Shown here: positions 5,499 through 10,464 of the stretch, piece by piece
How positions within the stretch are numbered: the first letter of the stretch is position 1
Layout: each line of letters begins with the position of its first letter
Source of the DNA: Conyzicola lurida
Lineage (GTDB): Bacteria > Actinomycetota > Actinomycetes > Actinomycetales > Microbacteriaceae
Direction: 5' to 3'
NCBI RefSeq assembly: GCF_014204935.1
Contig: NZ_JACHMJ010000001.1
Coordinates: forward strand, 248,001-312,000
Length of the DNA: 64,000 bases
Notes under the pieces: generated by a model
The model's input: only the letters and a program-made list of their open reading frames with translations
Databases searched by the model: none
What the model was told of the DNA's origin: nothing
Translations under genes and position numbers: made by a program

Positions 5499-6968
5499 CT
5501 AGCCCATGTGCACCGCGGTGCCGCCCTTGAGCAGGTCGTCCTTCGACGGCCGGATCAGGAAGAACGCGATCGGTGCGGCGAGCAGCATCAGGGCCGCGGC
5601 GCAGACGAACGCCGCCGAGTAGCCGCTGACCAGCGCGCCGAACTGCGCGGTGGGCGACGAGGCGTTGTCGGCGAGGTAGCTCGAGATCGCCGAGGTGTAG
5701 AGCGCGGTGAACAGCGCGGTGCCGATCGATCCGCCGATCTGCTGGGTGGCGGTGACCGCGGCGCTCGCGACGCCGGCGTCGTGGTCTTCGACCCCGGCCA
5801 GTGCGACGTTCTGCAGCGGCACGAAGATCGCGCCGAGACCGATGCCGAGCACGACGAGGCCGGGCAGCACCTCGAGCAGGTAGTTGCCCTCGACCGTGAT
5901 GAACGACAGGTAGAAGAGACCGGCGGCCGCGAGGATCGGGCCGACCGTCATCGGCAGGCGCACGCCGATCTTGGGCAGCACGTTCGACAGGATGCCGACC
6001 GTGACCATGATGACCGCGGTCATCGGCAGCGAGGCGAGTCCGGAGAGCAGCGGCGAGTAGCCCAGCACGATCTGGAAGTAGAAGATCAGGAAGAGCAGGC
6101 CGCCGAGCAGGGCCGAGCCGGTGAGGGCCGAGACGAGGAAGGCGCCACCGCGCACCTTGTTCACGATGACGCGCAGGGGCAGCAGCGGGTTGGAGACGCG
6201 CGACTCGACGAGGACGAACGCGGCGAGCAGCACGACGCCGAGCGCCAGCAGGCCGATCGTGTCGAGACGGCCCCAGCCCTCTTCGGCGCGGGAGAACCCG
6301 AACACGAGCGAGGCGAGACCGGCGACCACGAGGACCGTTCCCGGGATGTCGTACTTGGTGTTGCCGTGTGCACGGCTCTCGGTCATGAACACGAGTGCGC
6401 CGATGATCGCGACGATCGCGATCGGCACGTTCACGAGCAGGCACCACTCCCAACTGGCGAACTCGGCGAGGGCGCCGCCGAGCAGCAGGCCGACGGCGGC
6501 GCCACCGCCGCCGATCGCGCCGAAGACGGCGAACGCCTTGATGCGCTCCTTGCCGCCGGGGAACGTGATGGTGAGGATCGCGAGTGCGGCCGGGGCGAGC
6601 AGTGCGGCGAAGACGCCCTGCAGCGCTCGCGCGGCGAGCAACATCTCGGTGTTGACGGCGAGGCCGCCGATCGCGGAGGCGATGGCGAAGCCGATCATGC
6701 CGACGATGAAGGAGCGCTTACGGCCCCAGTAGTCGGCGACGCGGCCGCCGAGCAGCAGCAGAGAGCCGAATGCGAGGGCGTAGATGGTGACGACCCAGGT
6801 GCGGTCGCCGTCGGTCATGCCGAGTTCGATCTGGGCGTCGGGCAGAGCGATGTTCACGATGGTTCCGTCGAGGATCACCATGAGCTGGGCGAGCGCGAGG
6901 ACGGCGAGCAGCCACCAGCGATGGGTGGGTGCGGGGGTCGCGGGTGTTTCGGGCAAAGGAGAAGACAT
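5499..6968 (-). CDS. MFS drug exporter, DHA2/EmrB-QacA type (14 TM)
   Basis: This 489-residue protein has about 14 predicted membrane segments. It shows LDGTIVNIALPDAQ near residue 33 (family motif with the membrane-buried Asp), GRVADYWGRKRSF near 75-87 (MFS loop) and a central DHA2-type motif around NVALAGVEDHDAGVASA. It would be a proton-coupled exporter of drugs or metabolites. It is divergent from a TetR-type gene whose start overlaps a perfect 12-bp palindrome, the standard layout of a regulator with its pump. The start at 6968 precedes a short hydrophilic Pro-rich tail before helix 1; no clear ribosome-binding site is seen, so a slightly later start is possible. Confidence 0.87.
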   Translation of the reverse strand: MSSPLPETPATPAPTHRWWLLAVLALAQLMVILDGTIVNIALPDAQIELGMTDGDRTWVVTIYALAFGSLLLLGGRVADYWGRKRSFIVGMIGFAIASAIGGLAVNTEMLLAARALQGVFAALLAPAALAILTITFPGGKERIKAFAVFGAIGGGGAAVGLLLGGALAEFASWEWCLLVNVPIAIVAIIGALVFMTESRAHGNTKYDIPGTVLVVAGLASLVFGFSRAEEGWGRLDTIGLLALGVVLLAAFVLVESRVSNPLLPLRVIVNKVRGGAFLVSALTGSALLGGLLFLIFYFQIVLGYSPLLSGLASLPMTAVIMVTVGILSNVLPKIGVRLPMTVGPILAAAGLFYLSFITVEGNYLLEVLPGLVVLGIGLGAIFVPLQNVALAGVEDHDAGVASAAVTATQQIGGSIGTALFTALYTSAISSYLADNASSPTAQFGALVSGYSAAFVCAAALMLLAAPIAFFLIRPSKDDLLKGGTAVHMG

Positions 6969-7012
6969 TAAGAGAGCGGGATCCTGTCGTACGAACTAGT
7001 TGGTTGGGTTAG

Positions 7013-7024
7013 GTATGATCATAC
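7013..7024. promoter_or_regulatory. Palindromic operator candidate between MFS pump and TetR gene
   Basis: GTATGATCATAC is a perfect 12-bp palindrome lying 3 bp before the chosen TetR start and about 45 bp upstream of the pump start. Palindromes at this place are usual TetR operators, so self-repression and pump repression are inferred. Binding has not been shown. Confidence 0.5.
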
Positions 7025-7026
7025 TC

Positions 7027-7599
7027 ATGAGAAGTGACGGAGAAGCGACACGGGCCAGAATTCTGGATGCCGCAGCCCACGAATTCGCCGAACACGGCCT
7101 CGCCGGGGCCCGGGTCGACCGCATCGCGGCCGCGGCCAGCGCCAGCAAAGAGCGCCTCTACGCCTACTTCGGCGACAAGCGTTCGCTCTTCGTCGCTGTG
7201 CTCACCGACCACATGCAGGACATCACCGACTCGATGCCGATGTCGCCGCGCGATCTCGTCGGCTTCGTCGGCGGCATCTTCGACTTCGCCCAGGAGAACC
7301 CGGAGCACTTCCGCATGATGCAGTGGGCGAAGCTCAGCGGCGACCTCGACCTGCTGCCCGAGGTGCCCGCGGCCGTCGTCGAGCGGGACGCGCGGGTCAT
7401 CGCCGAAGCGCAGGCGCTCGGTCTGGTCGACCCGGAATGGTCGCCGCGAGAGCTCTTCGGCCTGCTCTTCGCCCTCGCGACATCCGAGGTCTATTTCCCT
7501 CTCGCGGACACGGATTCGGCCGACCTCGCCAGCAAACGGGCCGCGGTCGTGCGCGGAGCGGCGAAACTCATCGCTGTGCCCGACGCCGCCGTCCGCTAG
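7027..7599 (+). CDS. TetR/AcrR-family transcriptional regulator
   Basis: This 190-residue protein has an N-terminal TetR helix-turn-helix (about residues 6-50: [16 protein letters not shown], then [23 protein letters not shown]) and an all-alpha ligand-binding domain. In-frame starts exist at 7015 and 7027; the second puts the protein at typical length and leaves the palindrome upstream. Divergence from the EmrB-type pump suggests that it represses the pump and is released by its substrate. No Shine-Dalgarno sequence is obvious, so the mRNA may be leaderless. The riboswitch of glyA begins 7 bp after its stop. Confidence 0.87.
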
Positions 7600-7605
7600 A
7601 CTTTT

Positions 7606-7680
7606 CGAGTCGCAACTGGCGTTGAGATGGGTAACCATCAGGGAGCGAAGACTCATCGATTTGGCCGTACGCCTGGGCCG
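7606..7680 (+). promoter_or_regulatory. ZTP (pfl-type) riboswitch aptamer upstream of glyA-folD
   Basis: The sequence follows the ZTP/pfl aptamer order known for Z-nucleotide sensors. P1 is GAGTC (7607-7611) with GACTC (7650-7654). Next come the conserved ACTGGCG (7615-7621), a P2 hairpin GATGG-gtaa-CCATC (7626-7639), the GGGAGCGA joining strand, and the second subdomain with the hallmark ACGCCTGGGC (7669-7678) closed by GGCC pairs. ZTP builds up when 10-formyl-THF is short, and known pfl RNAs switch on folate and purine genes. Placement directly before glyA-folD fits that role. The call rests on matching motifs by eye. Confidence 0.88.
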
Positions 7681-7708
7681 AACGGATACCGTTAGTTCTG
7701 TCCGTTCG
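7679..7708 (+). promoter_or_regulatory. Putative expression platform of the ZTP riboswitch
   Basis: CGAACGGA (7679-7686) pairs perfectly with TCCGTTCG (7701-7708), and the left arm starts inside the last bases of the aptamer. A competing hairpin AACGG-ata-CCGTT (7681-7693) uses the same bases, so the two folds exclude each other. No T-run follows and the ribosome-binding site AAGGAG is at 7716-7721, so control of translation or of a distal step is more likely than a simple terminator. This is inference from pairing. Confidence 0.5.
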
Positions 7709-7729
7709 TCACCGCAAGGAGTCCCGCCA

Positions 7730-9016
7730 GTGTCCTCTTCCTTCAACTCCCCGCTCTCCGAGGTCGATCCCGAGATCGCCCTCGTGCTCGAACAGGAGCT
7801 CGGCCGCCAGCGCGGCACTCTCGAGATGATCGCGAGCGAGAACTTCGTTCCCCGCGCCGTGCTCGAGGCCCAGGGCTCCGTGCTCACCAACAAGTACGCC
7901 GAGGGCTACCCCGGACGCCGTTACTACGGCGGCTGCGAATTCGTGGATGTCGCGGAGAGCCTCGCCATCTCGCGTGCGAAGAGCCTCTTCGGCGCCGCGT
8001 ACGCCAACGTGCAGCCTCACTCCGGCGCCTCCGCCAACGCGGCCGTGCTTGCCGCGATCGCCAGCCCCGGCGACCGCATCCTCGGCCTCGAGCTCGCGCA
8101 CGGTGGACACCTCACGCACGGCATGAAGCTCAACTTCTCGGGCAAGCTCTACGAGGCGCACGCCTACGGCGTCGACCCCGACTCCTTCCTCGTCGACATG
8201 GACGTCGTGCGCGAGAAGGCCCTCGAGACTCGTCCCCAGGTGCTCATCGCCGGGTGGAGCGCCTACCCGCGCCAGCTCGACTTCGAGGCGTTCCGCGCCA
8301 TCGCCGACGAGGTCGGCGCCAAGCTCTGGGTCGACATGGCCCACTTCGCCGGACTCGTCGCGGCCGGCCTGCACCCGAACCCCGTGCCGTTCGCCGACGT
8401 CACCTCGTCGACCGTGCACAAGACCATCGGCGGGCCCCGTTCGGGCTTCATCCTGAACAACGACCTCGACATCCAGAAGAAGATCAACTCCAACGTCTTC
8501 CCCGGCCAGCAGGGCGGCCCGCTCATGCACGTGATCGCCGCCAAGGCGACCGCGTTCAAGCTCGCCGGCGAGCCGGAGTTCAAGGACCGTCAGGAGCGCA
8601 CCGTCCGCGGCGCGCAGATCCTCGCCGAGCGCCTCACGGCCCCCGACGCGAAGGCGGCCGGCATCGACGTGCTGACCGGCGGCACCGACGTGCACCTCGT
8701 GCTCGTCGACCTGCGCAACTCGGCCATCCACGGCCAGGACGCCGAGGACATCCTGCACTCGGTCGGAATCACGGTGAACCGCAACGCCGTTCCGTTCGAC
8801 CCCCGCCCGCCGATGACCCCCTCGGGCGTGCGCATCGGTACACCCGCGCTCGCGACGCGTGGCTTCGGCGACGCGGAGTTCACCGAGGTCGCCGACATCA
8901 TCGCGACGGCTCTCAAGCCGACTCCGGATGTCGCGGCTCTCCGCGCGCGAGTGCTCAAGCTCACCGACGGATTCCCGCTGTACGAGGGCCTCACCTCGCC
9001 CGGCAGCTGGGCGTAA
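7730..9016 (+). CDS. glyA: Serine hydroxymethyltransferase
   Basis: The GTG at 7730 follows AAGGAG (7716-7721) and gives 428 residues, normal for SHMT. Motifs: MIASENFVP near residue 35, [18 protein letters not shown] near 57-74, and the PLP-lysine segment [15 protein letters not shown] near 225-237. It interconverts serine plus THF with glycine plus 5,10-methylene-THF. The upstream open frame runs through the riboswitch and is not translated sequence. The gene is followed after 91 bp by folD, with a TTCGACAGGCTCAG hairpin between them. Expression is probably governed by the ZTP riboswitch. Confidence 0.96.
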
Positions 9017-9028
9017 CCCTTTCCTCCC

Positions 9029-9072
9029 CTTCGACAGGCTCAGGGACCGCACGGTAGCTGAGCCTGTCGAAG
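9029..9072. repeat. TTCGACAGGCTCA-family hairpin between glyA and folD
   Basis: CTTCGACAGGCTCAG (9029-9043) and its perfect reverse complement (9058-9072) form a 15-bp stem with a 14-nt loop. The same core occurs at 10459-10477 (half site), 43018-43098, 54102-54133 and 62886-62941, so this is a dispersed REP-like element. Between two co-directional genes it could act as a partial terminator or mRNA stabiliser. Confidence 0.8.
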
Positions 9073-9107: not shown

Positions 9108-9983
9108 ATGACCGCAACAATCCTCGACGGCGTCGCCACGGCATCCGCCGTCAAGAACGAACTCAAGGAGCGCATCTCCGCGCTCAAGGCGAAGGGGATC
9201 ACCCCCGGCCTCGGCACCCTGCTCGTCGGCAGCGACCCGGGCTCGCTCTCCTACGTCGCCGGCAAGCACCGCGACTGCGCCGAGGTCGGCATCGAGTCGA
9301 TCCGCGTCGACCTGCCCGAGACGGCGACAGCCGAGGAGGTGCGCGCCGCGATCATCGGGCTCAACGAGAACCCCGCCGTCACCGGCTACATCATCCAGCT
9401 GCCGCTGCCCGCCGGTCTCGACGAGAACGCGATGCTCGAGCTGATGGACCCCGACAAGGACGCCGACGGCCTGCACCCCACCAACCTCGGTCGCCTCGTG
9501 CTCGGCGTGAGCGGCGAGCTCGACTCGCCCCTGCCCTGCACCCCCGCCGGCATCGTCGAGATGCTCGGCCGCTACGGCGTCAGCATCCCGGGCAAGCACG
9601 TCGTCGTGATCGGCCGCGGCCTCACGGTCGGCCGCCCGCTCGGCCTGCTGCTCACGCGCAAGGGCGTCGACGCCACGGTGACGCTCACCCACTCGCGGTC
9701 GGTCGACCTGGAGGGCTACGTGCGCCAGGCCGACATCATCGTCGCCGCGGTCGGCGTCGCGGGACTCGTGAAGCCCGAATGGGTCAAGCCCGGCGCTGCC
9801 GTGCTCGACGTCGGGATCACCCGCGTCGTCAACGAGGAGACCGGCAAGGCGCGGCTCGTCGGCGACGTGGACCCCGGAGTGGCCGAGGTCGCCGGGTTCC
9901 TGTCACCCGTTCCCGGCGGGGTCGGACCGATGACGCGCGCCATGCTGCTGGTCAACGTCGTGGAGGCTGCGGAGCGTGCCTGA
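9108..9983 (+). CDS. folD: Methylene-THF dehydrogenase / methenyl-THF cyclohydrolase
   Basis: This 291-residue bifunctional enzyme shows [12 protein letters not shown] with the catalytic Lys near residue 53, [11 protein letters not shown] near 103, [24 protein letters not shown], the nucleotide-binding [14 protein letters not shown] and the C-terminal signature [15 protein letters not shown]. It links methylene-THF from GlyA to 10-formyl-THF for purine and fMet-tRNA synthesis. It is downstream of glyA in one apparent operon and overlaps the next gene by 8 bp. The two enzymes together explain why a sensor of 10-formyl-THF shortage would sit upstream. Confidence 0.96.
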
Positions 9984-10464
9984 GCATCCCGCCGTCGTGC
10001 GCGTCGAGGCGGCGCTGGTCGAGGCCGGCGTCGAGACGCAGGTCGTGTGGCTCGACGGGGCCGCGAAGACCGCCGTCGAAGCGGCATCCGCCCTCGGTAT
10101 CTCGGTCGGGGCGATCGCGAACTCGCTGGTCTTTCTGCTCGACGGGGAGCCCGCGCTCATTATGACGTCGGGCGCCCACCGCGTGGACACCGCGTGGCTC
10201 GGCGAGCGGGTCGGCGGCGAGTTTTCGCGCGCTGACGCCACGACGGTGAAGACGGCGACCGGGCAGGTCATCGGCGGCATCGCGCCCGTCGGACACCCGG
10301 CGCCGCTGCGCACGTTCGTCGATGAGGCGCTCGCGGAATTCCCCGAGATCTGGGCCGCGGCGGGGCACGCGCACACGGTGTTCCCGCTGTCCTTCGACGA
10401 GCTGGTGCGCATCACGGGCGGCACGGTGACGCCGGTCGCGCCTGCCGCCTCTCCGGCGGATTGA
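9976..10464 (+). CDS. YbaK/EbsC-family aminoacyl-tRNA editing protein
   Basis: This 162-residue single-domain protein starts at a GTG inside the end of folD (8-bp overlap). It matches the YbaK/ProX fold: [21 protein letters not shown] (with the Lys-containing AAKTAVEAA before it), then [13 protein letters not shown], and [13 protein letters not shown] near 95-108, the conserved glycine-rich binding loop. Family members deacylate mischarged tRNAs such as Cys-tRNA(Pro) or Ala-tRNA(Pro). Its specificity cannot be told from sequence. The last codons and the TGA lie in a TTGAGCC(C)GTCGAA half-copy of the REP-like family, so the present C-terminus may be repeat-derived. Confidence 0.85.

Follow-up and report, generated by a model that had tools for sequence, protein, structure and literature searches.

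The glyA-folD locus and its ZMP-ZTP aptamer

Within the window (the whole stretch of 64,000 nucleotides of Conyzicola lurida DNA that was analysed), a gene for serine hydroxymethyltransferase (SHMT), glyA, begins with a GTG codon on the forward strand (7730-9016; Pfam PF00464, E 4.7e-148), and is followed 91 nt past its end by folD, encoding methylene-THF dehydrogenase/cyclohydrolase (9108-9983, forward strand; PF02882 and PF00763). Directly 5' of glyA, a cmscan search of the 64 kb against Rfam located the ZMP-ZTP family RF01750 on the same strand at positions 7605-7685, with a significant score of 54.5 bits (E 4.2e-6) against a gathering score of 39. The match covers model positions 1-86 completely, and the first-pass annotation, which had placed a pfl/ZTP aptamer with all of its landmark segments in order on this strand ahead of glyA-folD, was borne out as to class, strand and position ahead of both genes. 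The element is, as judged from this alignment, a complete and ordinary ZMP-ZTP aptamer that should bind its ligand; the 3.64 Mb genome contains no second copy. It forms the leader of one-carbon-metabolism genes, which together with purine genes typify the class. ZTP riboswitches are RNA sensors of a folate-shortage signal.

The conserved core segments of the class, CUGGCG, GGGAGCG and GCCGnnCGCCUGGGC, were all found in the alignment, together with the GGCG/CGCC pseudoknot. From the 5' end, the P1 5' strand UCGC (7610-7613) pairs with GCGA at 7645-7648, and the CUGGCG core (7616-7621) supplies GGCG (7618-7621) which, by direct reading, pairs with CGCC at 7670-7673. The P2 hairpin GAUGG/CCAUC (7626-7639) was predicted by folding with pair probabilities of 0.71-1.00, varying with temperature and the 3' end chosen. 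It is followed by a segment comprising GGGA, the P1 3' strand GCGA and the J1/3 linker (7641-7654), and then by P3 (GGCC 7663-7666/GGCC 7676-7679), the loop of which contains the CGCC of the pseudoknot. A possible extension of P3, UUU 7660-7662 with GAA 7680-7682, is complementary across the leaders of relatives (z -4.7).

The promoter was recognized by the spacing of its -10 element. A TANNNT motif ends 8-24 nt 5' of CUGGC in 88 of 90 dereplicated leaders, at 13-15 nt in 85 of them, and occurs in an upstream control window in only 3/90; in the query it is TAGACT (7597-7602). From the -10 spacing, transcription is predicted to start at about G7609, which is position -7 relative to CUGGC and is G in 79/90 leaders. 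With this +1, P1 is limited to 4-5 bp, namely about 4 pairs in the query (UCGC/GCGA) and roughly 5 in the majority of relatives; an early P1 model of the query with GAGUC/GACUC was dropped because the conserved -10 element sets the +1 at about this position. The -10 element also shares bases with the stop codon of a TetR-like gene lying upstream (7000-7599), beyond which is a divergent MFS transporter gene (5499-6968, reverse strand).

Of 398 genomes sampled from the query's family, 352 had a match to RF01750, as did 203 of 297 at the order level. The order aptamer-glyA-folD, judged from the positions of the aptamer and folD (about 1.3-1.6 kb 3' of the aptamer), was kept in 30 of the 32 genomes checked (exceptions G012 and G047), and in 82/90 leaders the aptamer is followed by an SHMT-like N-terminal motif. 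Joint control of glyA and folD by a single RNA is plausible from this conserved gene order, although a repeat separates the two genes in the query. A second ZTP aptamer is present in several genomes (leaders L003 and L173 in G014; L013 and L161 in G021; L021 and L174 in G049). Between glyA and folD of the query lies a palindromic repeat (9029-9072) with 21-nt arms, 90% complementary, and a 2-nt loop; its core, CTTCGACAGGCTCAG, has 65 copies in the genome (reversed control, 0), and the repeat is a REP-like dispersed element that might affect folD expression. The 3' end of folD is overlapped by an open reading frame with an aminoacyl-tRNA editing domain (YbaK/ProX-like; 9976-10464), which may be part of its operon.

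Downstream of the aptamer, a hairpin designated P4 is formed by CGAACGGA (7679-7686) and TCCGTTCG (7701-7708). This is the long stem described in the first-pass annotation as starting inside the last bases of the aptamer, and it does so: C7679 is common to it and the P3 core, and G7680-A7682 to it and the possible P3 extension. P4 is present with 4-9 pairs in 20 leaders of the query's and related genera; as these were chosen for having both arms of the GGAU/RUCC tip, the tip is there by construction, though the additional pairs are not. At one pair both strands differ among them, A-U giving way to C-G, and the tip hardly varies. With folding probabilities of 0.99-1.00 whether the aptamer was left unconstrained or forced, P4 looks like a constitutive spacer hairpin and not a switch. 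The tip sequence GGATACC(G/T)TT (7684-7703 in the query; also leaders L010, L011, L020, L027, L030, L032, L034 and L061) is kept more strictly than pairing requires, so the P4 loop may serve some separate function.

Complementarity between the linker and the start region

The relationship between the aptamer and the ribosome-binding region was assessed in the 90 dereplicated leaders by comparing true pairs of linker and downstream region with linkers re-paired with the downstream regions of other species. Against the segment [-32,+6] of the start codon, true pairs gave -12.72 kcal/mol and re-paired ones -11.35 kcal/mol (z -5.3, 0/5000), a signal similar to that of the P1 positive control (z -4.7). 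The complementarity was localised to [-24,-14) (z -4.9) and [-8,+4) (z -3.7) from the start codon, and peaked at linker positions 7-9; the position homologous to 7708-7715 of the query is among those with an excess. Clear helices are seen in leaders L057 (CGACUGACAU/AUGUCAGUCG) and L174 (GCGAUGCAGU/ACUGCAUCGC), and in both the helix competes with P1 because the P1 3' strand is included in it.

Such a signal might instead arise incidentally, from common base composition or ancestry, with the expression platform lying elsewhere. Two results agree with this explanation: under hard dereplication (n = 36) the signal weakened, to z -1.3 for the part preceding the Shine-Dalgarno sequence and z -3.1 for the start-codon part, of which only the latter stayed significant, and a shuffled-sequence control reached z -2.0 in one test. 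Against it, reversed sequences of unchanged composition (z -1.2 and -1.7), the coding sequence (z -1.7) and other control regions gave much weaker values, and the result was seen again in 46 independent leaders, all but one belonging to other families of the order (45 of 46), with z -4.0 (0/3000) against +0.4 for reversed sequences. An incidental origin of this kind consequently appears unlikely. The earlier suggestion that the switch probably acts on translation is thus the better-supported route, by virtue of these complementarity tests.

Folding of the whole leader set revealed no aptamer-linked gain in Shine-Dalgarno accessibility beyond that of swapped controls; plain sequestration of the Shine-Dalgarno sequence, as judged from unbound versus aptamer-forced folding, was accordingly rejected. 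The gain in opening of the wider start region was 1.73 kcal/mol against 1.2-1.7 kcal/mol in controls and not significantly above them. The idea that start regions generally mimic the CUGGCG core was likewise discarded, the effect being not significant across leaders (p 0.34, against a small and rough control gene set).

A candidate translational ON switch and its alternatives

In the query, the segment preceding the Shine-Dalgarno sequence, GUCACCGC (7708-7715, forward strand), is complementary to GCG 7645-7647 and GAC 7650-7652. The predicted helix, P5, pairs the former with CGC 7713-7715 and the latter with GUC 7708-7710, adjoining the Shine-Dalgarno sequence AAGGAG (7716-7721), which itself lies 8 nt 5' of the GTG. 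GGGA 7641-7644 is further predicted to be able to pair with UCCC 7722-7725, 3' of the Shine-Dalgarno sequence, and CUGGC 7616-7620 to be able to cover the start codon by pairing with GCCAG 7726-7730. Since they use strands of the aptamer core, the GCG/CGC, GGGA/UCCC and CUGGC/GCCAG pairings, as distinct from GAC/GUC, would exclude ligand binding. The cost of opening the query start region fell in folding from 10.5 to 6.2 kcal/mol when the aptamer was forced, a gain exceeding that of 88% of swapped downstream regions and reached by 12%; four congeners gained 3.3, 0.8, 2.8 and 4.1 kcal/mol, where swapped regions averaged close to 1. Over bases 7722-7732, the predicted unpaired probability rose from 0.09-0.34 to 0.67-0.75.

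It is proposed that the glyA 5' leader consists of the aptamer, beginning at the transcription start (about G7609), the P4 spacer and the ribosome-binding site. In the unbound state, the P1 3' strand, the linker and parts of the core would pair around the Shine-Dalgarno sequence and start codon (7708-7732), and translation of glyA would initiate poorly because this region is paired with aptamer strands. Binding of ZMP/ZTP would enforce P1 and the pseudoknot, withdraw those strands and open the start region, the net logic being that of an ON switch, chiefly translational; folD, 91 nt downstream, would probably come under the same control by way of a common mRNA. That aptamer folding frees the glyA start region, as a translational ON switch, is considered somewhat probable, with ligand binding, direction, competition and folD coupling all inferred. 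It is held to be the most likely reading, without firmer grading, because the predicted unbound pairings of the query vary with the 3' end chosen and the gain across leaders does not rise above controls.

Control of transcription was also considered, in which the unbound RNA would undergo Rho-dependent or other non-canonical termination, perhaps at P4. This would be closer to the mechanistically studied ZTP riboswitches that were found, which use an intrinsic terminator displacing P3 (PMC10085676), and by direct reading P4 does begin within the P3 3' strand and recurs in 20 leaders. However, neither an intrinsic terminator nor a T-run was found on the forward strand between the query aptamer and the start codon, in keeping with the first-pass remark on the missing T-run, so that the query leader has no terminator of the P3-displacing type; TTTTT was found in only 2 of the 90 and none of the 46 leaders of relatives. 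P4, moreover, is predicted at >=0.99 (at least 0.99) in both states, which leaves nothing to switch, and many leaders lacking P4 still keep the complementarity between linker and start region. Transcriptional control is accordingly thought to be rather unlikely.

In the opposite direction of translational control, folding of P1 would release the linker GACUC (7650-7654), which would then mask the Shine-Dalgarno sequence by pairing with GAGUC (7719-7723). With the aptamer forced, this pairing had probabilities of 0.29-0.80 for the two shorter of the three 3' ends, and on these predictions would favour OFF logic, in conflict with the ON model; OFF behaviour has also been predicted for a tandem ZTP element 5' of moeA (PMC9481103). 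Nevertheless, the pairing was lost with the longer 3' end, the GACUC linker is not conserved in congeners, and ZTP is expected to induce genes that replenish 10-formyl-THF (PMC2864571, PMC9481103), such that OFF logic seems improbable. Least credible of all is the platform of the first-pass annotation, a choice between the CGAACGGA/TCCGTTCG hairpin and a small hairpin AACGG/CCGTT (7681-7685/7689-7693, forward strand): the two can indeed be drawn and are geometrically exclusive, and the long stem is conserved, but a ligand switch between them was rejected, as the small hairpin, 4-5 kcal/mol worse with other pairings equal, has a folding probability of 0.00 with the aptamer unconstrained or forced, and of the 20 P4 leaders has all 5 pairs in 8 and only 0-2 in the other 12, among which are the congeners L010, L020, L027 and L030.

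Relation to known ZTP riboswitches

The pfl motif was tied to glyA and folD from its first description (PMC2864571), and the query shares with that class its conserved segments, a full-length match to RF01750 and the same gene association; as motif and association were already described, it is a normal member of the known class. It differs in its expression platform from the studied examples that were found, which use intrinsic terminators (PMC10085676, PMC11419147). A recent covariation study of whole riboswitches used sequences carrying terminators as the seed of its ZTP model (PMC13273304). The aptamer of that model is the same and its platform also re-uses aptamer bases, whereas the query leader has no intrinsic terminator and the bases proposed to be re-used belong to the P1 3' strand and J1/3 instead of P3. 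The same study noted almost no transcriptional variants of the fluoride riboswitch in Actinomycetota. Translational riboswitches with a P1 switching helix (PMC2258182) offer a further parallel, in that a P1 strand is likewise common to the aptamer and the ribosome-site structure, but in the query the complementarity falls less on the Shine-Dalgarno sequence itself than on its flank and the start codon.

Within the library searched, no report was returned on the ZTP riboswitch in connection with translation and Actinobacteria, nor by a search on the pfl motif with glyA. We tentatively raise the possibility, at a lower confidence than the ON switch of the query, of an order-wide translational platform that we found undescribed for the class, in which a helix of the P1 3' strand and J1/3 with sequence next to the Shine-Dalgarno or over the start codon is maintained by compensatory evolution and opened by aptamer folding. 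If the P5 helix is true, the expression platform is a new variant of the ZTP class; otherwise it is not. How ZTP riboswitches work without intrinsic terminators, as in the query, is the less known side of the class, and the comparative signal would here be turned into a concrete, mutable helix on which to examine whether one-carbon metabolism is controlled at translation during folate stress.
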